A DNA stretch of 32,774 nt from Candidatus Zhuqueibacterota bacterium (lineage in GTDB: Bacteria > Zhuqueibacterota > Zhuqueibacteria > Residuimicrobiales > Residuimicrobiaceae), in NCBI GenBank assembly GCA_963169875.1, contig CAUJEL010000199.1, positions 1-32,774 on the forward strand. Direction: 5' to 3'. The position numbers and the translations under genes are program-made. Under the pieces are notes generated by a model, which was given only the letters and a program-made list of their open reading frames with translations, did not search any database and was not told the origin of the DNA. Each line of letters opens with the position of its first letter. The stretch's first letter is position 1. Below are positions 14,309 through 29,655 of this stretch, piece after piece.

Positions 14309-14599
14309 ATGACAAGTGATACCAATAACAAACCCATGGCCAATCCGCTCATCGTTCTGCGCGAAGAATTCGACGATTGGGCCATTCTTTTTGACCCCGA
14401 TACCGGGGACGCCTCGGCCATCAATCCGGTGAGCGTCTTCATCTACAAGCATCTCGATGGCAAACATACGGTTCCTGACATTGTCGCCAAGTTGAGAAAA
14501 GAGTGCGAGGATGTGCCGGAAAACGCCGAAGCCGAGGTGCAGGAATTCATCCAGCAGTTGCTGGACAAGGGATACGCGGGGTATGAAAAGCAATTCTGA
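14309..14599 (+). CDS. PqqD-like peptide chaperone (ScmD-like)
   Basis: A 96-residue protein of the PqqD / RiPP recognition element fold, a small winged helix that binds the leader of a precursor peptide and delivers it to the modifying radical SAM enzyme. Features: EEFDDWAILFDPDTGDASAINPVSVFIYKHLDGKHTV-like pattern (residues 16-52, described here by its hallmarks: a Trp-containing strand, the DPDTG turn, INP, then a helix with hydrophobic spacing). IVAKLRKECEDVP and a final helix ending LLDKGYAGY complete it. This is the usual domain length. It precedes two radical SAM/SPASM genes and the likely precursor, which makes the role persuasive. It resembles ScmD of the cassette I know as SynChlorMet; that match is from memory. 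Confidence 0.85.
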   Translation: MTSDTNNKPMANPLIVLREEFDDWAILFDPDTGDASAINPVSVFIYKHLDGKHTVPDIVAKLRKECEDVPENAEAEVQEFIQQLLDKGYAGYEKQF

Positions 14600-14733
14600 A
14601 TTTTGAATGCTGGATTACGAGTCAACAGCCGGAAATTATGGCTTACCATCAGACAATCGACCTTCATCATTCAGCATTCAATCTTTATTATTCAGTATTC
14701 ATAATATAGCATTTTCCCGTAGAGTTTGCCCTT
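14600..14733. repeat. ATTCAGCATTCAA-type word repeat between PqqD-like and radical SAM genes
   Basis: The 134-base gap carries 'gaattttgaatgctggatta' at its start and 'attcagcattcaatctttattattcagtattcata' words at 14669-14703. These are two related degenerate words in opposite orientation. It is another member of the intergenic word-repeat population. No second precursor peptide is visible here. Confidence 0.5.
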
Positions 14734-15837
14734 ATGCCAAATGTGATAAAATCACCCCGTTCGCTCGACATTGATATCACCAGCCGCTGCAATTTGCGCT
14801 GCAAGTACTGCTATCATTTCAGCGGCCCCGGCGATGTGGACACAGACCTGCCCAAAGAGGAGTGGCTGCGGTTCTTCGTCGAATGCGGCCACTATGGGAT
14901 CATGGGACTCTCCCTGGCTGGTGGCGAGCCATTTTTCCGTAAGGATCTGCCCGAGCTTCTCGAAGGCATCATCGCCAACCGCATGCGCTTTTCCCTGCTC
15001 AGCAACGGCACCCTTATCGATGACGCCTGGGCTAAATATATCAAAGAGACGCGGCGCTGCAACTATATTCAGGTTTCTTTGGATGGGTCCAGGGCTGAAG
15101 TACATGATCAGCTACGCGGCAAAGGGCAGTTCGACAAAGCAGTGGCCGGTTTGCAGCACCTGCAGCGCCATGGCGTGCCGGTGACCGTTCGGGTGACGCT
15201 CAATAAACTCAATTACCATGATCTGGAAAACATCGCCCGGTTTTTGCTGGAAGAACTGGGGCTACCCGCTTTTTCCACCAATGCCGCTTCGTATATGGGA
15301 TTGTGCAAGCTGAATGACCAGGAGATCGGCCTGGATGTTGCCGAGCGCAGCGCACTCATGGCGGTTTTTGCCGATCTCGTGAAGCGTTATCCCGGCCGCT
15401 TCAGCGCCAACGCCGGGCCGCAGGCCGATCTGCGCATGTGGAGCGAGATGGAGCGGGCGCGTCTGGGCGGCTTGGCGCCGGCGCATCCAACCGGCGCCCT
15501 GACGGCCTGTGGCTGCGTCTTTGACCGCATGGCGGTCCGCGCAGACGGTATTATGACGCCCTGCACCATGCTCAGTCACATGGAGATGGGCCGTATCAAT
15601 CATGACGATCTGCGAGAAGTGTGGCAGAACCATCCCCTGATGCAAAGTATGCGAGCACGTAACGAAATATCGTTAAAATTGTTTGACTTTTGTAGCAGTT
15701 GTAATTATATTAACTATTGTACAGGTAACTGTCCCGGGGTGGCTTACGAACTAACAGGCGAAGTGGACCATCCCAGTCCGGATGCCTGCTTCAAACGCTT
15801 CCTTGGTGCGGGCGGCGTTTTACCCGAAATAAATTGA
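14734..15837 (+). CDS. Radical SAM/SPASM peptide-modifying enzyme (ScmE-like)
   Basis: A 367-residue PqqE/AlbA-type enzyme. The N-terminal radical SAM motif CNLRCKYC uses C19, C23 and C26. LSLAGGEPFFRKDL is the SAM-binding GGEP segment and IQVSLDGS follows in the barrel. The C-terminal SPASM region carries auxiliary cluster cysteines in ACGCVFDRMAVR, MTPCTML, FCSSCNYINYC, TGNCPG and the last PDACF. Such enzymes abstract a hydrogen from a peptide residue and form carbon or thioether crosslinks, depositing electrons through the auxiliary Fe-S clusters. The gene ends in a TTGA overlap with the next radical SAM gene, so translation is coupled. It matches ScmE by size and context; exact chemistry cannot be deduced. 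Confidence 0.88.
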   Translation: MPNVIKSPRSLDIDITSRCNLRCKYCYHFSGPGDVDTDLPKEEWLRFFVECGHYGIMGLSLAGGEPFFRKDLPELLEGIIANRMRFSLLSNGTLIDDAWAKYIKETRRCNYIQVSLDGSRAEVHDQLRGKGQFDKAVAGLQHLQRHGVPVTVRVTLNKLNYHDLENIARFLLEELGLPAFSTNAASYMGLCKLNDQEIGLDVAERSALMAVFADLVKRYPGRFSANAGPQADLRMWSEMERARLGGLAPAHPTGALTACGCVFDRMAVRADGIMTPCTMLSHMEMGRINHDDLREVWQNHPLMQSMRARNEISLKLFDFCSSCNYINYCTGNCPGVAYELTGEVDHPSPDACFKRFLGAGGVLPEIN

Positions 15838-17051
15838 TAATCAGTATTGCCCTTATTTCCGGATTTCTGTTATCAGGCATACATACGTTGTTGAGAGTAA
15901 ACGTACTGAACCAGTCCATTGAAACATCATATCCCCTGCGGACCCTGTATTTTTATTTGACCGAGGGATGTAACCTGGCGTGCCGCCACTGCTGGATCGC
16001 ACCCAGGTTTCAGGATGAGAAGCACCAGTACGGCTATCTGGATTATCAGCTCTTTGAAAAGATCATCACCGAGGCCAAACCGCTGGGATTGACAGGCGTC
16101 AAGCTCACCGGCGGCGAGCCGCTGATGCACCCGCGGATCGATGAAATAGTGGATCATATCCGGGAGCAAGAGCTGGCATTGACGGTCGAGACCAACGGCG
16201 TGCTGTGCACGCCGGAGCTGGCGCACAAAATGGCCGCCTGCCAATCAGCCTCCGTCTCCGTCAGCCTCGACGGCGTCGACGCAAAGACCCACGAGTGGGT
16301 GCGCGGTGTCAAGGGATCGTTCGAGGCAGCGTTGCAGGGGATACGGCATCTGGTTCAGGCCGGGCTGAAACCGCAGATCATCATGAGCATCATGCGCATC
16401 AATGTGGACCAGGTCGAGCCCATGGTGCGGCTGGCGGAAGAGCTGGGATGCGGTTCTGTCAAGTTCAATCTCATCCAGCCGACGGAGCGCGGCGAGCGGA
16501 TTTACGAGGCGGATCAGGGATTGACGATCGAAGAGTATATCGATCTGGGCAAATTCGTCGAAAATGAGCTGTCGGGCCGGACGCAGATAAAATTGTACTA
16601 TGACCATCCCATGGCTTTCCGGCCGTTGAGCAGGCTTTTCGGGGCAGAGGGTGATGGCTGCAGCCGCTGCGGCATTCTCGGGGTTCTTGGTGTCCTTTAC
16701 GATGGTTCCTATGCCTTGTGCGGCATCGGAACCAGCGTGCCGGAGATGATCTTTGGCCGGGCGGGCGAAGATCCCCTGGATACGGTGTGGCGGGAGAACC
16801 GGGTACTGAATGAGCTGCGTGAGGGTTTGCCGCAGAATCTCAAAGGTGTATGCTCCGATTGTTTGATGAAAAATATTTGTCTCGGTTCATGCGTGGCACA
16901 GAATTACTACCGGACAAAGAATATACTCGCTGGATTTTGGTTTTGTGAACAAGCGCATCAATTAAATCAATTTAACTATTCACGTCAAAAATCATCAGTT
17001 AAAACTGATAGGGAGGATTCAAATGAAGTGGGAGAAACCGAGATTGCATGA
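15834..17051 (+). CDS. Second radical SAM/SPASM peptide-modifying enzyme (ScmF-like)
   Basis: A 405-residue protein from TTG 15834, overlapping the previous stop. The cluster motif CNLACRHC uses C45, C49 and C52 in this numbering. VKLTGGEPLMHPRI is the SAM segment and VSVSLDGVDAKTHEWVRG the barrel strand. The SPASM part has GCSRCGILGVLGV, YALCGIG, GVCSDCLMKNICLGSC and a last Cys in FWFCEQA. The first 20 residues are hydrophobic and may be an artefact; later TTG codons near 15888-15891 could be the true start. The last 25 residues after the SPASM fold are polar (SSVKTDREDSNEVGE), perhaps because the downstream precursor start with its ribosome binding site is embedded there. It probably acts on the same peptide as the preceding enzyme, at other residues or in sequence. 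Confidence 0.87.
   Translation: MIISIALISGFLLSGIHTLLRVNVLNQSIETSYPLRTLYFYLTEGCNLACRHCWIAPRFQDEKHQYGYLDYQLFEKIITEAKPLGLTGVKLTGGEPLMHPRIDEIVDHIREQELALTVETNGVLCTPELAHKMAACQSASVSVSLDGVDAKTHEWVRGVKGSFEAALQGIRHLVQAGLKPQIIMSIMRINVDQVEPMVRLAEELGCGSVKFNLIQPTERGERIYEADQGLTIEEYIDLGKFVENELSGRTQIKLYYDHPMAFRPLSRLFGAEGDGCSRCGILGVLGVLYDGSYALCGIGTSVPEMIFGRAGEDPLDTVWRENRVLNELREGLPQNLKGVCSDCLMKNICLGSCVAQNYYRTKNILAGFWFCEQAHQLNQFNYSRQKSSVKTDREDSNEVGETEIA
17011..17016 (+). promoter_or_regulatory. Strong ribosome binding site of the precursor gene
   Basis: GGGAGG stands six bases before ATG 17023, inside the coding end of the second radical SAM gene. It is one of the best Shine-Dalgarno matches in the window. It supports high-level translation of the precursor compared with the enzymes and decides the start of this short gene. 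Confidence 0.7.
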
Positions 17052-17274
17052 TATGCATGCACTAGACAATGCCTTCGGTGCAGATTGTGTTTCCGGCTCG
17101 GCACCAACAGGAGGAGGAACATGTACTTCTGGAACTGCTGCTTATTCATGTGGTTCAGGAGCAGGTGTAAATACATGTGCACAAGGCAACACGGTGTCTG
17201 GGGGCAGATGTACAAACGGAAATTCGAATAATAACGGTTTTTGCCAAAATGGCAACGGTGTTACACAGGTTTAG
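17023..17274 (+). CDS. Candidate six-cysteine RiPP precursor peptide
   Basis: An 83-residue product with an obvious leader/core layout. The leader (1-21) begins MKWEKPRLHDMHALDNAFGA and contains a W-x-K-P element. The rest is rich in Gly, Ser, Thr and Asn with cysteines at 22, 34, 43, 52, 63 and 74, at intervals of 12, 9, 9, 11 and 11. There is no signal peptide, no transmembrane segment, and Lys and acidic residues are absent after residue 21. This composition is typical of substrates for thioether-forming radical SAM maturases. The start overlaps the ScmF-like gene by 29 bases behind a strong ribosome binding site. Its place directly after two radical SAM/SPASM genes and a PqqD homologue makes the precursor role likely. 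Crosslink positions, mature length and activity are unknown. Confidence 0.82.
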   Translation: MKWEKPRLHDMHALDNAFGADCVSGSAPTGGGTCTSGTAAYSCGSGAGVNTCAQGNTVSGGRCTNGNSNNNGFCQNGNGVTQV

Positions 17275-17351
17275 GCACACTTGTTTATGTAATAATAATA
17301 AACAATAGGTTGAAACGATTTATTTTATGTTTCATCAGCAGGGTAACATCT

Positions 17352-18236
17352 GTGGGACAAAATCTAAAGGGTTATAAATTAGAGTTACGAGATGGGAAAA
17401 AATGGTTTTTTCTCGCAGCTAACAATTTACACAGATGGTTTGAAGATTATACAAAAATCATGTGTTTGCAACCTTGCCGATATCAACAGGAACAGAGAGC
17501 AATCTATTTTGAGAAAGATTTTTTTTTATTACCACATAGATCTGCTTATCATATTGGTATTCGGAGCCGTTCCTCATCAAAATTTGACCGAATTAATGAT
17601 TTACTCGAAGATAATTATATAAAGCTGAGTCTTAGAAATATTGATGTATCAATAAATAATTACTATATGACGATGTCAAAAGGGCTATTCCCAATCTATG
17701 TCAATAGTATATGGCATGGAGGCTTATGTCTACATACAGCTTTTATCGAGCATGCCGGAAAAGGATATGCAATTGTCGGCCAGGGAAATGCTGGCAAAAC
17801 TACATGCGCGCGCAGGATCCCCGATCATTGGCAAGCAATTGCTGATGATGAGGTACTGATCGTAAAGGATTTATCTGATGAATATTTGGTACATCCATTC
17901 CCAACTTGGAGTGATTATATTTGGAATAGAGAGTGCAAAAAAACTTGGGATTCATCTAGTTATTCACGGTTAACAGCATTTTTTTTTATAAATAAGCACC
18001 CAGTCGATGCTATAACCCCCATTAGCAAAACAGAAGCATGCCTGAAGATTTATAAATCCGCAAATGAGGCACTACGTCGATTTTATCCAATTTTTACACC
18101 ATCAGAAAGATTATTGATCCAAAATAAACTAATGGATAATGCAAGCACAATTCTAAAAAAAATTAGGGCATTTAATATCAATGTAAGCTTGAATGGAAAA
18201 TTCTGGGAAAAAATTCAGGAACTTCAACTTGTCTAA
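17352..18236 (+). CDS. HprK-like P-loop protein (ScmC-like)
   Basis: A 294-residue protein if begun at GTG 17352, which has AGGG eight bases upstream; the frame is open back to TTG 17241 inside the precursor gene. The Walker A loop is GQGNAGKTTCARR (about residues 139-151), followed by IADDEVLIV, where an acidic pair could bind Mg, and by the VHPFPTWSDY motif. This layout is that of HPr-kinase-like proteins found in RiPP clusters. One such kinase phosphorylates a lasso precursor in paeninodin-type clusters, so a peptide kinase role is plausible here. It matches the ScmC component as I remember it. The gene is far richer in A+T than the radical SAM genes before it, with many ATA and AAA codons, suggesting a different recent history. 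Confidence 0.75.
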   Translation: MGQNLKGYKLELRDGKKWFFLAANNLHRWFEDYTKIMCLQPCRYQQEQRAIYFEKDFFLLPHRSAYHIGIRSRSSSKFDRINDLLEDNYIKLSLRNIDVSINNYYMTMSKGLFPIYVNSIWHGGLCLHTAFIEHAGKGYAIVGQGNAGKTTCARRIPDHWQAIADDEVLIVKDLSDEYLVHPFPTWSDYIWNRECKKTWDSSSYSRLTAFFFINKHPVDAITPISKTEACLKIYKSANEALRRFYPIFTPSERLLIQNKLMDNASTILKKIRAFNINVSLNGKFWEKIQELQLV

Positions 18237-18693: not shown

Positions 18694-19326
18694 TTGAAAG
18701 CACAATCGTTTACATATATCGGCCCCAGCATGCATCCCACTTTCAAGGCGGGGGATGGGCTGATCACGATTCCCTGTACCGGCAGGCCTATTCGAATTGG
18801 CGATGTGGTCATTTTCAAATCGCCGCAAGACAAAGCGCAGATTGTACACCGCGTAATTAAAATCACACCCCGGGGCATAAAAACCCGCGGAGACAACAAC
18901 CGCCTCGAAGATCCCTGGCTGCTACAGCCTCAAGACATCCTCGGCCGCGTCGTCGAAATCCAGCGCGGCAGCCGCCGCCTGAAAACCTGGAACGGCCTGG
19001 CCGGGCATCAATACGCAGAACTGCAGCGCACCAGGCGCCGCCTTCTCGATCGCCTGGCCGCCCTGTGGCCGCGATGGTTGCCGCGGCGCCTCCCGATCAT
19101 CCGTGCGCGCCATCTCAAAATAGCGATTTTTAAAAAACCTGGCGGAGATGAAAACGTGCTCCTGCTCGGCCGCCGCGCCATCGGCCGCCGTCGCGATGCC
19201 TCAACGCCCTGGATGATCCGGTCGCCCTACCGATTTTTTATCTCCACCGCAACATTGGCCGGGATTGATCGGCACGACCGAACGCCGAAAGACAAAAAAA
19301 ATGCGACTTGCCATAGACAAAAATGA
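18694..19326 (+). CDS. S24/S26 (signal peptidase I-like) Ser/His peptidase
   Basis: A 210-residue protein with the catalytic Ser in YIGPSMHPTFKAGD and, instead of the usual Lys, a His in QIVHRVIKI, as in the Ser/His archaeal/SipW branch of S26. RIGDVVIFKSP and KTRGDNN complete the domain. The C-terminal half is Arg-rich and ends WMIRSPYRFFI, a tail I associate with S26-like peptidases found beside RiPP maturation genes. The only start in frame after an upstream stop is TTG 18694, without a good ribosome binding site, so the N-terminus is uncertain. Placed after the precursor and HprK-like genes and before the ABC exporter, it is a candidate leader or maturation peptidase, since the exporter has no C39 domain. 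The remaining C-terminus after the RSPYRFF segment is unusually basic. Confidence 0.72.
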   Translation: MKAQSFTYIGPSMHPTFKAGDGLITIPCTGRPIRIGDVVIFKSPQDKAQIVHRVIKITPRGIKTRGDNNRLEDPWLLQPQDILGRVVEIQRGSRRLKTWNGLAGHQYAELQRTRRRLLDRLAALWPRWLPRRLPIIRARHLKIAIFKKPGGDENVLLLGRRAIGRRRDASTPWMIRSPYRFFISTATLAGIDRHDRTPKDKKNATCHRQK

Positions 19327-19537
19327 TCAGCAGCGCTGGATGCAGCAGTGGCGTCAGGCCGCTGTTGCCATGGCGGAGCAGCGGCAAAGCGAGCTGGCCG
19401 GAAAAAGCGAAGAGGAAATTTTGGCTGCCATTGATGCTCTGCTGAGCCTGCCGCATGACATGCCTGACGTCCCGGATCAAGAAGTGACTTCCGGTTTGGT
19501 TGAACAGCAAAAAATATTCCATAAAAATCGCAAATGA
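19301..19537 (+). CDS. Small partner protein of a nucleotidyltransferase (possible antitoxin)
   Basis: A 78-residue protein starting at ATG 19301, within the end of the S26 peptidase gene and overlapping the next gene by ATGA. It is charged and helical in the first half (QQRWMQQWRQAA, KSEEEILAAIDALLSLP) and ends with TSGLVEQQKIF. That conserved-looking TSGLVEQQ tail I have seen in small proteins encoded just before AbiEii-like nucleotidyltransferases. The tight overlap argues for a two-gene unit, possibly a toxin-antitoxin pair with this as antitoxin. The function has not been shown in this sequence. Confidence 0.6.
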   Translation: MRLAIDKNDQQRWMQQWRQAAVAMAEQRQSELAGKSEEEILAAIDALLSLPHDMPDVPDQEVTSGLVEQQKIFHKNRK

Positions 19538-20097
19538 ATCCCATTTTTCAAGCGGCCCAAAATTTGCAAAATTTCTGTGAACAAACAAGATGGAAATTTT
19601 GCTTTATCGGCGGTCTCGCTGTACAGCGCTGGGGCCAGCCTCGCATGACCATGGATGTTGATATGACACTGCTCACTGGTTTTGGCAACGAGCAGTATTA
19701 TATAAAAAAACTGTTGCAGCAATTCACGCCCCGGCGATCGGATGCTGCTGAGTTTGCCGTGAAAAATCGGGTCTTATTGATAAAAGACGAAAATCGCACC
19801 CCATTTGATATTGCTCTTGGCGCCATACCCTTTGAAGAAAATGCCATTCGCCGCTCTTCGATCTGGATTATTAATCAAGAATTCTCGTTGCGCACGTGTT
19901 CCGCTGAAGATTTGATCGTGCACAAGTCCTTCGCTAATCGTGGCATAGATTGGTTTGATATCGAATCCATTTTGCAGCGCCAGCAGGGCGTTTTAAATAT
20001 TCAACAAATACGCGATGATTTAAAACCATTGGCTGAGCTCAAAGAGGAACCTGAAATCCTCACCAAACTTGAAAGAATGATCACCGCGTACCGTTGA
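19534..20097 (+). CDS. AbiEii/AbiGii-like nucleotidyltransferase
   Basis: A 187-residue protein with the minimal nucleotidyltransferase signature: GGLAVQRWGQPRMTMDVDMTL, holding the GG loop and the D-x-D metal pair, then TPFDIALGAIPF with a third acidic residue. The C-terminal helices contain SAEDLIVHKSFANRGIDWFDIE, the (D)LI..K..A.R..D..D pattern of the family. Related proteins are toxins of type IV or MenT-type modules that modify tRNA or other targets. It overlaps the 78-residue partner by four bases. It may be unrelated to the peptide cassette and simply inserted in it, because it separates the S26 peptidase from the ABC exporter. Confidence 0.72.
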   Translation: MNPIFQAAQNLQNFCEQTRWKFCFIGGLAVQRWGQPRMTMDVDMTLLTGFGNEQYYIKKLLQQFTPRRSDAAEFAVKNRVLLIKDENRTPFDIALGAIPFEENAIRRSSIWIINQEFSLRTCSAEDLIVHKSFANRGIDWFDIESILQRQQGVLNIQQIRDDLKPLAELKEEPEILTKLERMITAYR

Positions 20098-20182: not shown

Positions 20183-21994
20183 ATGAAATCGATCATTAAA
20201 AAGATCCAAACCGGTCTTCCTGCGCTGCGTCAGGCCGCGGAACTGGTCTATAAAAGCTCCGGGAAATGGACCCTTCTCACCGCTTTCCTGGTATTACTGC
20301 AGGGACTGTTCCCGCTGGTTACGCTTTATCTGACCAAACTGGTTGTCGATACCGCGGCAACCGGAGTGACAGCGGCCGATAAAAGTGATGCGTTTCAAAA
20401 GCTATTCACTTTCATTATTCTGGCTGCGGCCGCGGGTGTCCTCGGCTCCCTGTTGAACAGCCTGGCGCAGATCGTTCAGGAGTACCGCGATCTGCGCGTC
20501 AATGAATATATTTTGAATCTGATCCACGCCAAATCGGTGCAGGTCGATCTGGCCTTCTATGAAAATCCGGCCTATTTCGACAATCTTCATATGGCGCAGA
20601 ACCAGGCCGCGTTCCGGCCGGTCTCCATGGTCAATAAATTGGTGCAGTTGGTGCAAAACGCCATCACCCTGGGCGCCATGGTGGCGGTGCTGCTCACTTT
20701 TAATGCGCTGGTCATCATACTGGCAGGAATAGCCGTTGTGCCGGCTGTCTGGGTGAAATACCGGTTCTCGCGCCGTCTCTATGAATGGCACAAGAAATGG
20801 ACGCATTCGGAGCGAAAATCCCAATATTACAGCTGGCTCATCACCTCTAAAGTCTATGCCAAAGAGCTGCGGCTTTTCGGCCTGGGCGAGCTATTTATCG
20901 ACCGGTTCAAGGAGCTGCGTTGGCGCGTCGCCATGGAACGGCTCAAGTTGAACCGCAGGCGCACCCTCGCCGAGCTGGCGGGACAGGTTTTCACGGTGGT
21001 CGTGGCCTTTGCGCTGCTCGCCTTCATCGCCCGCGATGCGGTCCGGGGCGCCATCACGCTCGGCGGACTGGTGATGTATTACCAGGCTTTTCAACGCGGA
21101 CAGACCTCGATGCAATCGACATTAAAAGGATTGGCGGAGCTATACGAGGATTCCCTTTTTCTTCGCTCGCTTTTTGACTTTCTCGAAGTTAAACCGGACA
21201 TTGCGGACCCGCCGGCACCGCGCCGATTGGTGCAAAAGGTGCAACACGGCCTTGCTTTTGAAAAGGTATGTTTTCAATATCCTGCAAGTGGCAAACCGGC
21301 GTTGCAGGACATCAGCTTTACTATTGCGCCCGGAGAGCATATTGCCCTGGTGGGCGAGAACGGCAGCGGCAAATCCACCCTCATCAAACTGATGTGCCGA
21401 CTCTACGACCCGGACACGGGCGTTATTACCCTGGATGGCCACGATATTCGTGAATATGCCGTAGCGGATATCCGCCAATCCATGAGTGTGCTGCTACAGG
21501 ACTTTTCCCAGTATCACACCACCGCGCGCGAAAACATCTGGTACGGAGATATCCAATCGAACGCAGGGGATGAACGCATCGAAGCGACTGCACGTCTGGC
21601 GGGCGCCAACCGGGTCATAGACAAACTGCCTCAAAAGATGGATACACCGTTGGGACGCTGGATAGAAGAGGGTAGCGAGCTTTCAACCGGTGAATGGCAG
21701 CGCATGGCCCTGGCGCGCACTTTTTTCCGCGAGGCGCCCATCGTCATCCTCGATGAGCCCACCAGCAGTCTGGATGCAGATGCGGAAACCCGCATTTATC
21801 AGTCATTCCTGCAGCTGGCAAAAGGTAAAACTGCACTGTTTATCAGTCATAAAATGTTTTCGGCGCGCATAGCCGATCGCATTCTGGTGCTGGAAAACGG
21901 ACATCTGGCCGAGAGTGGAAACCATACAGAGCTGATGCGGCGCAATGGCATCTACGCCCGGCTCTATTCGCTGCAGGCGCAGCGCTTTGCATGA
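20183..21994 (+). CDS. ABC exporter, fused permease and ATPase
   Basis: A 603-residue half-transporter of the MsbA/HlyB-like exporter class, acting as a homodimer in the inner membrane. The N-terminal 330 residues hold about six hydrophobic helices (for example LLTAFLVLLQGLFPLVTLYL and AITLGGLVMYY). The nucleotide domain shows Walker A GENGSGKST (about 391-399), Q-loop in VLLQDFSQYH, an altered signature ELSTGEWQRMALART where LSGGQ is usual, Walker B IVILDEPTSSLD and the H-loop FISHK. There is no N-terminal C39 peptidase domain, so leader removal must be done by another protein. By position it is the best candidate to export the modified peptide; a lipid or sugar substrate for the surrounding polysaccharide locus is also possible. 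Confidence 0.88.
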   Translation: MKSIIKKIQTGLPALRQAAELVYKSSGKWTLLTAFLVLLQGLFPLVTLYLTKLVVDTAATGVTAADKSDAFQKLFTFIILAAAAGVLGSLLNSLAQIVQEYRDLRVNEYILNLIHAKSVQVDLAFYENPAYFDNLHMAQNQAAFRPVSMVNKLVQLVQNAITLGAMVAVLLTFNALVIILAGIAVVPAVWVKYRFSRRLYEWHKKWTHSERKSQYYSWLITSKVYAKELRLFGLGELFIDRFKELRWRVAMERLKLNRRRTLAELAGQVFTVVVAFALLAFIARDAVRGAITLGGLVMYYQAFQRGQTSMQSTLKGLAELYEDSLFLRSLFDFLEVKPDIADPPAPRRLVQKVQHGLAFEKVCFQYPASGKPALQDISFTIAPGEHIALVGENGSGKSTLIKLMCRLYDPDTGVITLDGHDIREYAVADIRQSMSVLLQDFSQYHTTARENIWYGDIQSNAGDERIEATARLAGANRVIDKLPQKMDTPLGRWIEEGSELSTGEWQRMALARTFFREAPIVILDEPTSSLDADAETRIYQSFLQLAKGKTALFISHKMFSARIADRILVLENGHLAESGNHTELMRRNGIYARLYSLQAQRFA

Positions 21995-25636: not shown

Positions 25637-26743
25637 ATGCTTAAAAATGCAGCACTTGAAACCCAATTCATCCTGCTCGGTTCGCGTAGAAACCTTGATA
25701 ATGAGAATAAAGAACGCTTTGCCGAAATCGCCCGGCAGAAGCTGGATTGGTCTAAGGTTTACTCTTCTGCTATTCTCTGGGGATTGCTGCCGCCATTATA
25801 CAGGAATCTGATCGAAGTAAAATCACTGGTACCATCGCAATTCCTCAAACCATTTTCACTAGCCTATCAGCAAAATCTGGTTAGAAATCTCCAGCTCTCC
25901 ACGGAACTTATCAGGTTATTGCACTTGCTGCAGCAGGAGGAAATTACAGCTGTTCCGTTCAAAGGACCGGCGCTTGCCTATTATCTGTACCAGGACATTG
26001 CATTACGCAGAGCTGCTTGTGATCTCGACATTTTTGTCACTAGAGAAAATGTTGCCAGAGTCCTGGAGATCGTTCAGGCGAACGGCTATACACTTTATCA
26101 GGATCATCAGGGACTTTCCCACGAGCATTATCTCCAATTCAAGTCACATTATATCCTTCTGGGCGCGGATCGAAAACCGGCTCTTGAAATTCATTGGGAC
26201 ATCGCCCCTGGATATTTTACTTCTCATTTCAATTTTCCGCAAAAAATCAAGAATATAACCACCATAAACTATCAACAAGAAACATTAGCTTATTTAAATC
26301 CAGCGGATCTGATGCAGTGCCTCTGCATCCATCTTGCTCGGCACCTGCAAAAATCATTAGTATGGATAAAAGACATCGCCGACCTGGCTGATCAGTTCGA
26401 CGCTGCGGATTGGTCTCCTTTTCTGCAAAGATGCAAAAAAGAACAGTGCCAGCGAGTTGTTTTACTGGGACTCGGATTGAGTGATCATTTTTTTGCGCCT
26501 CATTTGCCGGATAGTGTGCGCAAAGCTCTGAAAGCGGATAATCAAGTACAAAAATTAGTACAACGACATGCCAGGGGATTACTCGAAACCAACTCATCTC
26601 AAAAAATGAGTTCCTGGAAATATGCGCTCACCTACAGTCGCGAGATGTTCGCTCTTCAAGATTCTGTTAAAGCCAAAATAGACCTGGCAACCGGCCGATT
26701 GCTGGAAATGCTTACAACTTCAAGATTAATATCAACGCCCTAA
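25637..26743 (+). CDS. NTP_transf_5-like nucleotidyltransferase family protein
   Basis: A 368-residue protein with the signature of the uncharacterised nucleotidyltransferase family PF14907: VPFKGPALAYYLYQDIALRRAACDLDIFV (residues about 99-127; hallmarks are the KG loop, LY, the R, and the D-L-D pair). This is followed by a helical region with LEIHWDIAPGYF and LMQCLCIHLARHLQKSLVWIKDIADL, where H and W-x-K-D-x-x-D positions are typical. Such genes occur in lasso and other RiPP clusters together with HprK-like kinases, and also in polysaccharide clusters. Here it is separated from the peptide cassette by the Wzc-like gene and runs straight into wecB with a 2-base gap, so a role in either pathway is open. 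Confidence 0.78.
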   Translation: MLKNAALETQFILLGSRRNLDNENKERFAEIARQKLDWSKVYSSAILWGLLPPLYRNLIEVKSLVPSQFLKPFSLAYQQNLVRNLQLSTELIRLLHLLQQEEITAVPFKGPALAYYLYQDIALRRAACDLDIFVTRENVARVLEIVQANGYTLYQDHQGLSHEHYLQFKSHYILLGADRKPALEIHWDIAPGYFTSHFNFPQKIKNITTINYQQETLAYLNPADLMQCLCIHLARHLQKSLVWIKDIADLADQFDAADWSPFLQRCKKEQCQRVVLLGLGLSDHFFAPHLPDSVRKALKADNQVQKLVQRHARGLLETNSSQKMSSWKYALTYSREMFALQDSVKAKIDLATGRLLEMLTTSRLISTP

Positions 26744-27891: not shown

Positions 27892-29655
27892 ATGAAGAGC
27901 AGAGCGATCATTCAAGCCAGATTAACCAGCTCACGATTCCGCGGCAAATCACTGATGCCGGTTGCCGGCAAACCTTTACTCGTCAGAGTCATAGAACGCG
28001 TACAGGCTATGTCTTTCATCGATCAGATAATGATTGCCACCAGCAACAATCCTGCCGATGAGCCCATCGAAGCCCTTGCTAAAAGCCGGGATTTACTCTA
28101 CTACCGCGGTGATGAGAATGATGTTTTACAGCGTTTTGTTCTCGCTTCATCTGATATGTCAGAAGATGATCTTATCGTAAGATTTACAGCAGATAATCCC
28201 GTTTATGACCCGGCAAGATCAGAACTTGCGTACAAGGCATTTATTGGGGAGAATGTAGAATATCTCTGCCTCGATGGACTCTCTCACGTGGTTCCGGAAT
28301 TTATAAAAGTGGCAGCCTTGCACAAATGCGCGCAATTGACGGATGATCCATTTGATCACGAACACGTCACACCATTTTTCCGAAAACAACAGCCAAAATT
28401 TTCTATAAAAATTTTGCCATCTGATTTTGCTGGATTAAAACCTGCCATGGACAAATATCTGACCATTGACACGGGCGAGGAACTGCGTCGCTTTGATAAA
28501 ATGCTGATGGAAATTGAGGGCACAGAGACAATACCCTCATTGGAATCCTGTTATCATTGGTTGGATAAAAATGTCTCTCAATTCCATGGCTATCTGAATG
28601 CGAAGCAGAATGATATTCGTATCAAGATGGCCGGCCGGGAAATAGGTGATGGTTTACCCACTTTCATTGTTGCAGAAATCGGCCAGAACCATAATGGAGA
28701 TATGGAAGCAGCCAAAAAACTCATCGAAATGGCGGCCAGGTGTGGAGCTGACGCCGTAAAATTCCAAAAGCGTGATATACATTGGGAATTAACAGACGAA
28801 CTCTACAACAAGCCTTACGATAGCCCGCATTCTTTTGGCAGGACCTATGGTGAACATCGCGAACATCTTGAATTGAATGAGAACCAGCACCATGAACTTA
28901 AAGAATATGCAGCGGCCAATGGACTTGTCTATTTCTGTACCGCGTGCGATGAGCCCTCTGTAGAAATGATGGAGAGAATTGGCAACCCAGTTTATAAAAT
29001 TGCGTCGCGCGATATTTCCAATATACCACTTTTAAAGACGATCGCCCAAACGAGAAAACCGGTGATTATCTCGACAGGCATGGCTGGAATTGCAGAAATA
29101 GATGAAGCGCTTGAAGCTTTTGGCGATCTACCGCCTGTTATTGTGCTTCTTCAATGTATATCACAATATCCGGCTGATTTGGAGCGCATCAATGTGCGTA
29201 CAATTCAGAGCATGCGGCAGAAATTTGGCATGTTGACGGGTTTGTCTGATCATACCGTGGGTATTATTCCATCGGTCGCATCGGTGGCACTGGGTGCTGC
29301 TGTCGTCGAAAAACACATCACGCTGTCCAGGGCGATGAAGGGAACTGATCAAGCTGGCTCCCTGGAAGAAGAAGGCTTGCGCCGCTTGGTAAAGTATATC
29401 CGTGAAGTAGAAATAGCCTTGGGTGATGGCATCAAGCAGTATGATCCCGCCGCGGATACGGCGCGAAAGAAACTGGCGCGCAGTTTGACCAGTAAAAGAG
29501 ATTTACGTAAAGGTGAAATTCTGACAGAAGAATTGATCGTCCTGAAAAGCCCTGGCGATGGCATCATCTGGCGCGAAAGAGAGGCTGTGATTGGAAAACG
29601 TCTTGTCAAGGATATAGCTGGAAATACAACTTTGCGCCTGGAAGATTTTGAATGA
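27892..29655 (+). CDS. Fused SpsF-like cytidylyltransferase and SpsE/NeuB-like sialic acid synthase
   Basis: A 587-residue bifunctional protein. Residues 1-235 are a SpsF-type cytidylyltransferase: IIQARLTSSRFRGKSLMPVAG nucleotide loop, then RFTADNPVYDP. Residues about 246-490 are a NeuB/SpsE TIM-barrel synthase that condenses phosphoenolpyruvate with an N-acyl-mannosamine-like sugar: FIVAEIGQNHNGDMEAAKKL, ADAVKFQKRDI, KIASRDISNIPLL, GLSDHTVG and VEKHITLSR. The C-terminal 70 residues are a SAF (antifreeze-like) domain, KKLARSLTSKRDLRKGEIL. In B. subtilis spsE and spsF are separate spore-coat sugar genes; fusing them couples sugar synthesis with nucleotide activation. A Met at residue 246 exactly at the domain border may be a relic of the separate start. 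AGGAA precedes ATG 27892. The ATGA overlap at 29652 couples it to the next gene. Confidence 0.88.
   Translation: MKSRAIIQARLTSSRFRGKSLMPVAGKPLLVRVIERVQAMSFIDQIMIATSNNPADEPIEALAKSRDLLYYRGDENDVLQRFVLASSDMSEDDLIVRFTADNPVYDPARSELAYKAFIGENVEYLCLDGLSHVVPEFIKVAALHKCAQLTDDPFDHEHVTPFFRKQQPKFSIKILPSDFAGLKPAMDKYLTIDTGEELRRFDKMLMEIEGTETIPSLESCYHWLDKNVSQFHGYLNAKQNDIRIKMAGREIGDGLPTFIVAEIGQNHNGDMEAAKKLIEMAARCGADAVKFQKRDIHWELTDELYNKPYDSPHSFGRTYGEHREHLELNENQHHELKEYAAANGLVYFCTACDEPSVEMMERIGNPVYKIASRDISNIPLLKTIAQTRKPVIISTGMAGIAEIDEALEAFGDLPPVIVLLQCISQYPADLERINVRTIQSMRQKFGMLTGLSDHTVGIIPSVASVALGAAVVEKHITLSRAMKGTDQAGSLEEEGLRRLVKYIREVEIALGDGIKQYDPAADTARKKLARSLTSKRDLRKGEILTEELIVLKSPGDGIIWREREAVIGKRLVKDIAGNTTLRLEDFE

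Follow-up and report, generated by a model that had tools for sequence, protein, structure and literature searches.

Which peptide is processed by the pair of radical SAM enzymes encoded in this locus, and what could they make of it? The window, that is, the whole 32,774-nt stretch of DNA analysed, holds adjoining genes for two such enzymes, and a small ORF with regularly recurring Cys residues begins inside the second one. The original prediction took this ORF for a precursor with six repeats of one modification unit. It is very likely that the gene indeed encodes the raw peptide for the two adjoining radical enzymes, with six Cys-x-x-Gly sites on which both would act, and that the precursor belongs to a natural-product family widespread in bacteria and archaea.

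The Cys-rich ORF lies in an SCM cassette

The ORF (17023-17274, + strand) runs from an ATG for 83 aa and is preceded by a GGGAGG ribosome-binding site (17011-17016, +) 6 nt upstream of the start codon. Its first 29 nt coincide, in a different frame, with the end of the ScmF ORF. Cys residues occupy positions 22, 34, 43, 52, 63, and 74, with gaps of 12, 9, 9, 11, and 11. The ORF, these positions, the GGGAGG, and a start within the ScmF-like gene had all been predicted and were confirmed from the sequence. The anticipated recurrence of Cys every 9-12 residues likewise applies to the window and to 166 of 199 gaps among homologues, and the ladder is real in that it is conserved in small ORFs beside ScmF of other genomes. 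Past Asp21, the window peptide contains no Lys, Asp, or Glu and a single Arg at position 62; the predicted shortage of Lys and acidic residues therefore holds here but is not a family trait, with only 4 of 56 distinct cores devoid of K, D, and E. A promoter and terminator scan yielded nothing useful.

The flanking genes, all on the + strand, form a SynChlorMet, or SCM, cassette, with ScmC, ScmD, ScmE, and ScmF scoring over their NCBIfam cut-offs within 14309-18236. ScmD (14309-14599) is a PqqD-like RiPP recognition element (RRE) and putative leader binder (TIGR04248, 135.9 bits, cut-off 100; Pfam PqqD, 2.3e-15). The radical SAM/SPASM maturases ScmE (14734-15837; TIGR04250, 539 bits, cut-off 400) and ScmF (15834-17051; TIGR04251, 573 bits, cut-off 400) follow; ScmF is listed from a TTG, and its true start is probably nearer 15930. 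ScmE of the window carries CxxxCxxC and the full 7-Cys SPASM signature, which is found in 61 of 61 ScmE and in 65 of 66 complete ScmF homologues, and the best PDB sequence matches of ScmE and ScmF include the sactionine synthase SkfB. A radical SAM/SPASM maturase adjoins a Cys-containing precursor, as in sactipeptide loci, whose thioether between Cys sulfur and an alpha carbon may be formed here too.

NCBIfam already describes the SCM cassette and includes a precursor model for it, ScmA (TIGR04252, 49 positions, cut-off 35 bits). The window peptide is unmatched by TIGR04252 at E 0.1, has no family match in NCBIfam or Pfam at that threshold, and is not among the five places that TIGR04252 finds in its own genome at E 10. 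This model weakly matches 10 of the 44 peptides in our precursor profile (best 4.2e-6) and reaches its cut-off in none of 50 ScmF genomes, where seven of its eight weak matches coincide with peptides found by the profile. Because the cassette genes exceed their cut-offs and TIGR04252 matches are weak or absent, the window peptide is, judged by sequence, a precursor of the SCM cassette outside the curated, narrow ScmA model. Literature searches with SynChlorMet, ScmA/ScmF, and the TIGR numbers found no paper naming the cassette, the titles listed for the combination of kinase, peptidase, and radical SAM included no obvious cassette paper, and none of the cassette names occurs in the main text of PMC9062424.

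Homologous peptides accompany ScmF across phyla

Two genome sets were used. Among 99 related genomes (the window's own included) profiled for ScmF, seven scored >300 bits and four of these exceeded the cut-off. Named genome contigs were scanned with an alignment of seven ScmF proteins, and the best 80 loci were kept; by our own models, at least 74 loci among the matches listed hold ScmF, and they include loci from Aminicenantes, Desulfobacterales, Nitrospirae, Chloroflexi, Lentisphaeria, Fermentibacteria, and methanogens. In 46 of the 74 listed loci, a small ORF that combines a [Y/W]xxP leader with several CxxG units lies near ScmF, counting the window's own locus and, twice, one contig that appears as both L007 and L093. 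The filters used found no precursor near ScmF in the other 28, many of which are short contigs, and several of their genomes carry a profile-matching precursor elsewhere.

Since the first seed peptides had been required to hold at least three CxxG, a scan was also run for the leader only, with no Cys criterion. It retrieved 55 ORFs in 44 of the 74 listed loci: 44 with at least two CxxG, three with one, and eight with none, the last of which look like chance ORFs by eye. The same scan of 13 control radical SAM loci, a small set of which 11 reach 9 kb, returned two ORFs, neither with CxxG. Leader-bearing small ORFs beside ScmF thus retain their Cys, contrary to the loss of Cys in a preserved frame that would have spoken against the original prediction.

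At the genome level, the profile built from 44 peptides matched all seven relatives with ScmF and one of the 92 without it (weakly, 9e-4). One of the seven, G078, was matched though it had supplied no profile row, and the window precursor, which is itself a row, was recovered from its own genome with E 1.7e-12. Of the 50 ScmF genomes reached through the named loci listed, 43 had profile matches, including 21 of the 28 that had supplied no row. Seven lacked a match, and in G105, G107, G118, and G120 no precursor was found by any route.

Gly sets the register of the repeat unit

The core (17086-17271, +) reads as six units beginning CVSGSAP, CTSGTAA, CGSGAGV, CAQGNTV, CTNGNSN, and CQNGNGV. Each Cys is followed by x-x-Gly, and A, P, or V stands three residues past Gly (Gly+3) in five of the six. 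With Cys fixed and the remaining core residues shuffled, only 6 of 20,000 shuffles of the window peptide alone reached six CxxG (mean 1.6). Across the homologous cores of 47 peptides, Gly lies at +3 for 217 of 246 Cys, where shuffling yields 56.5 on average (sd 6.1, max 78). This count is biased by the requirement for at least three CxxG in these seeds, from which the leader-only scan is free. After de-duplication, 284 Cys in 56 distinct cores had Gly at +3 in 244 cases, at +4 only in 24, and at neither in 16.

Alignment of the homologous peptides, the check proposed for Cys spacing and partner residues, revealed a shared repeated unit, C-x(2,3)-G-x-x-[A/P/V]. A/P/V stands at Gly+3 in 68% of CxxG and 92% (22/24) of CxxxG units, and at Cys+6 in only 7 (29%) of the 24 CxxxG units, versus a core background of 22%. 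As A/P/V tracks Gly+3 and not Cys+6 in the latter, Gly fixes the register while Cys may shift by one. The expected modification ladder stands as a precursor with repeated units, but Cys alone is not the conserved element, and the ladder is better described as a CxxG(xxA/P/V) ladder with Gly setting the register. At least one of the two positions that follow Gly is Ser or Thr in 174 of 268 units.

Cores of the homologues contain 2-9 Cys, except for 14 in two. The exceptions, L036:7345-7704 and L036:8938-9309, hold CC and CxC, unlike a simple ladder, and account by eye for 13 of the 16 Cys with Gly at neither +3 nor +4.

The leader and its putative cleavage site

The window leader, MKWEKPRLHDMHALDNAFGA (17023-17082, +), contains a WxxPxL motif and, by comparison with homologous leaders, would be cut after AFG or AFGA. 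In 47 leaders the first residue of the motif is Y (41), W (5), or F (1), the lone F being an artefact of an extended start in L065, whose true reading is W. A hydrophobic residue is mostly present at P+2 and always at P+5. In 27 of 47 leaders an [AGS]xG motif, AFG(A) in the window, ends one to three residues ahead of the first Cys, versus a shuffle mean of 4.8 and maximum of 12. A search of the ScmD alignment for a partner of the leader Y/W found no clear co-varying position, W leaders occurring in five loci only. An Asn is kept in 30 of 31 ScmD rows (counted by eye), and we infer that it is the equivalent of LppB N33.

Conserved leader, conserved unit, and genome co-occurrence together strongly support 17023-17274 as a precursor peptide with repeated modification units for ScmE and ScmF.

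Predicted kinase, peptidase, exporter, and nucleotidyltransferase genes

Downstream of the precursor gene, ScmC (17352-18236, +; GTG start assumed, the listed ORF beginning at 17241) matches TIGR04249 with 193 bits (cut-off 125). H, GK, DD, and PTWS are invariant in its alignment (GK, H, and DD in 19). Its predicted structure (pLDDT 86) has a PEPCK-like fold (best Z 13.8, rmsd 5.0, 249 residues aligned), a class that also includes the HprK kinases. HprK chains are not among the 50 matches listed in this fold comparison, and phmmer found no match to ScmC in PDB sequences. With a P-loop, an acidic pair, and a modelled HprK/PEPCK fold, ScmC is a predicted HprK-like kinase.

Next lie an archaeal-type signal peptidase I-like protein and candidate leader peptidase (18694-19326, +; TIGR02228, 62.0 bits, cut-off 51.85) with GPSMHP, VHRV, and RGDN motifs, an MsbA-like ABC transporter and candidate exporter (20183-21994, +; ABC_tran 1.2e-33; MsbA family 288 bits, under the cut-off), and an NTP_transf_5 nucleotidyltransferase, a putative accessory (25637-26743, +; PF14907, 8e-49). 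Comparison of 49 other listed Scm loci that span 9 kb or more with 11 control loci revealed signal peptidase homologues in 25 versus none (Fisher p 0.0016), MsbA-like transporters in 30 versus three (p 0.05), and NTP transferases in 16 versus none (p 0.03). Altogether, 35 ORFs match the signal peptidase, and 19 carry all three motifs by strict patterns. ScmC and the archaeal-type peptidase are joined in one ORF six times in the listed loci (L049:4343-5953, L051:1305-2888, L084:3935-5551, L090:3714-5282, L083:9812-11617, and L008:2602-4062), with the peptidase first in two and the kinase first in four; the peptidase is fused to NTP_transf_5 in two more ORFs (L033:10838-12874 and L082:5364-6911, minus strand).

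Between peptidase and transporter (19265-20097) lie a small ORF and then an AbiEii-like nucleotidyltransferase (PF08843, 2.3e-6), neither with homologues in other listed Scm loci. A role in exopolysaccharide production was considered for the window locus, which has Wza, Wzz/kinase, NeuB, and epimerase genes, and rejected: close homologues of these occur in at most four other listed Scm loci, so the peptide is not tied to the polysaccharide locus. One window ORF (27892-29655) fuses a CMP-sugar cytidylyltransferase domain, a NeuB synthase, and a SAF domain.

A proposed pathway and its alternatives

To the following pathway for a radical SAM RiPP precursor we give about an even chance. ScmD would hold the W-x-x-P-x-L leader and offer the core to ScmE and ScmF, which would act repeatedly on the C-x(2,3)-G-x-x-[A/P/V] units. 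In each unit, one small thioether ring would link the sulfur of Cys to the alpha carbon of the Gly at +3 or, in some units, +4, so that the product would be a flexible chain of roughly six rings, each of four residues. Assisted by ScmD, the signal-peptidase-like protein would cut after A-x-G(A) just ahead of the first Cys; ScmC may phosphorylate Ser or Thr, by analogy with known kinases of this type; and the MsbA-like transporter would export a peptide that, as a guess, is secreted or surface-directed. Cys-to-Gly rings are proposed on account of the complete SPASM signatures, the relatedness to SkfB, and the precedent of the four-residue rings in streptosactin. The roles of RRE, peptidase, and kinase are carried over by analogy from passages on linear polyphosphorylated peptides (LPP; PMC13381572). 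The chain of thioether loops originally suggested would fit SPASM maturases and these precedents.

The ring acceptor could lie elsewhere in the unit. In a possible but doubtful alternative, Gly serves as a turn and the thioether is made to A/P/V three residues past it, to the Ser/Thr that follows it, or through beta or gamma links. The frequency of A/P/V at Gly+3 and of Ser/Thr after Gly speaks for such acceptors, as do the beta and gamma thioethers that other SPASM enzymes make in ranthipeptides, according to sections of PMC8326336. Against them, Gly far outdoes every other position, at +3 or +4 from nearly all Cys, and beta or gamma links are impossible with a Gly acceptor. Gly at +3 may be structural instead of the acceptor, and the L036 peptides do not fit simple i,i+3 rings. 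An unlikely variant has two radical changes per unit, with one enzyme forming the thioether at Gly and the other altering A/P/V, for example by epimerization. It would explain the joint retention of two different SPASM enzymes (all 74 listed loci contain ScmF, by which they were chosen, and 71 also contain ScmE) and the presence of two conserved positions in the unit. ScmE also weakly matches the epimerase YydG (5e-6), yet it matches SkfB better, the YydG match is limited to the radical SAM core, and Pro at the A/P/V position would be unusual for epimerization.

Readings without thioethers fare worse. Regular Cys amid small, polar residues would suit a peptide that binds metal or forms disulfides while ScmE and ScmF act on another substrate, but the lasso-like leader, the gene adjacency, the Gly register, and the co-occurrence with ScmF in relatives (7/7 versus 1/92) render this improbable. 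That the ORF is a chance reading frame, as its overlap with ScmF and the missing library match might hint, is virtually inconceivable: the same position is conserved in related genomes behind a good ribosome-binding site, and we regard this conservation as having refuted the idea already. For the family as a whole, we tentatively propose, at somewhat less than an even chance, a class of RiPPs present in methanogenic archaea as well as many bacterial phyla. Two SPASM enzymes would move along a Gly-anchored C-x(2,3)-G-x-x-[A/P/V] ladder and equip every unit with a ring and perhaps one further change. The RRE-kinase-signal peptidase chassis would be common to lasso peptides and LPP, and the products would be long, secreted, beads-on-a-string polythioether peptides that are possibly phosphorylated.

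Comparison with known systems

Ranthipeptides of the freyrasin type use an Asp acceptor four residues past Cys. Asp occupies Cys+4 in about 5% of 240 cases among homologues and in none of six in the window. The six window Cys span 53 residues, beyond the six in forty-five of SCIFF peptides, and the one NCBIfam match that the window peptide has at E 1 (E 0.48) is unrelated and not to the SCIFF family model. What SCM peptides would share with freyrasin, for which sections of PMC8326336 describe six Cys thioethers in a row with Asp acceptors, and with SCIFF is the succession of several Cys thioethers. By excerpts of PMC13361665, the radical SAM maturase of streptosactin installs a pair of non-overlapping four-residue sactionine rings in a 14-mer, just the ring size that CxxG would yield, and part of PMC12973295 implies a thioaminal in the B ring of streptosactin, the link expected of a Gly acceptor. 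SCM cores, however, hold 2-9 (twice 14) Cys in place of two rings, and the cassette differs from sactipeptide systems by its two maturases, RRE, kinase, and peptidase.

The accessory genes point to LPP, found mainly in Bacillota. In the passages of PMC13381572 on this system, the RRE binds a YxxP leader, the signal-peptidase-like LppS requires the RRE for leader cleavage, and an HprK-like kinase phosphorylates a Ser. The window contains the same RRE, HprK-like kinase, archaeal-type signal peptidase, NTP transferase, and MsbA-like exporter, and shares with LPP a [Y/W]xxP leader motif and a polysaccharide locus. In contrast, the term radical SAM is absent from the main text of PMC13381572 and the window has ScmE and ScmF; the LPP leader ends in FET and the SCM leader in A-x-G, ahead of a CxxG ladder. 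Only the WxxPxL part of the window leader fits the LPP pattern YxxPxVLxHQxIxFETxxS. Paeninodin-type lasso systems also have the [Y/W]xxP leader, HprK-like kinase, and NTP transferase (parts of PMC13381572), and a Pfam scan of 19 window ORFs found neither the asparagine-synthetase-like cyclase (macrolactam synthetase) nor the B2 protease of lasso loci.

With precursor, leader, and repeat unit known, four genes suffice to put SCM chemistry to the test. Should each unit carry a ring, the family would offer a programmable scaffold of polythioethers, with 2 to 14 Cys, and the variable spacing of Cys within a fixed Gly register would reveal how a SPASM enzyme chooses its target. The accessory set further suggests one leader/RRE/peptidase/kinase chassis serving very different core chemistries.

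Some genomes may hold more than one such gene. The profile found six precursor matches in G146 (the genome of L083) and four in G141 (the genome of L075), which suggests several precursors per genome.
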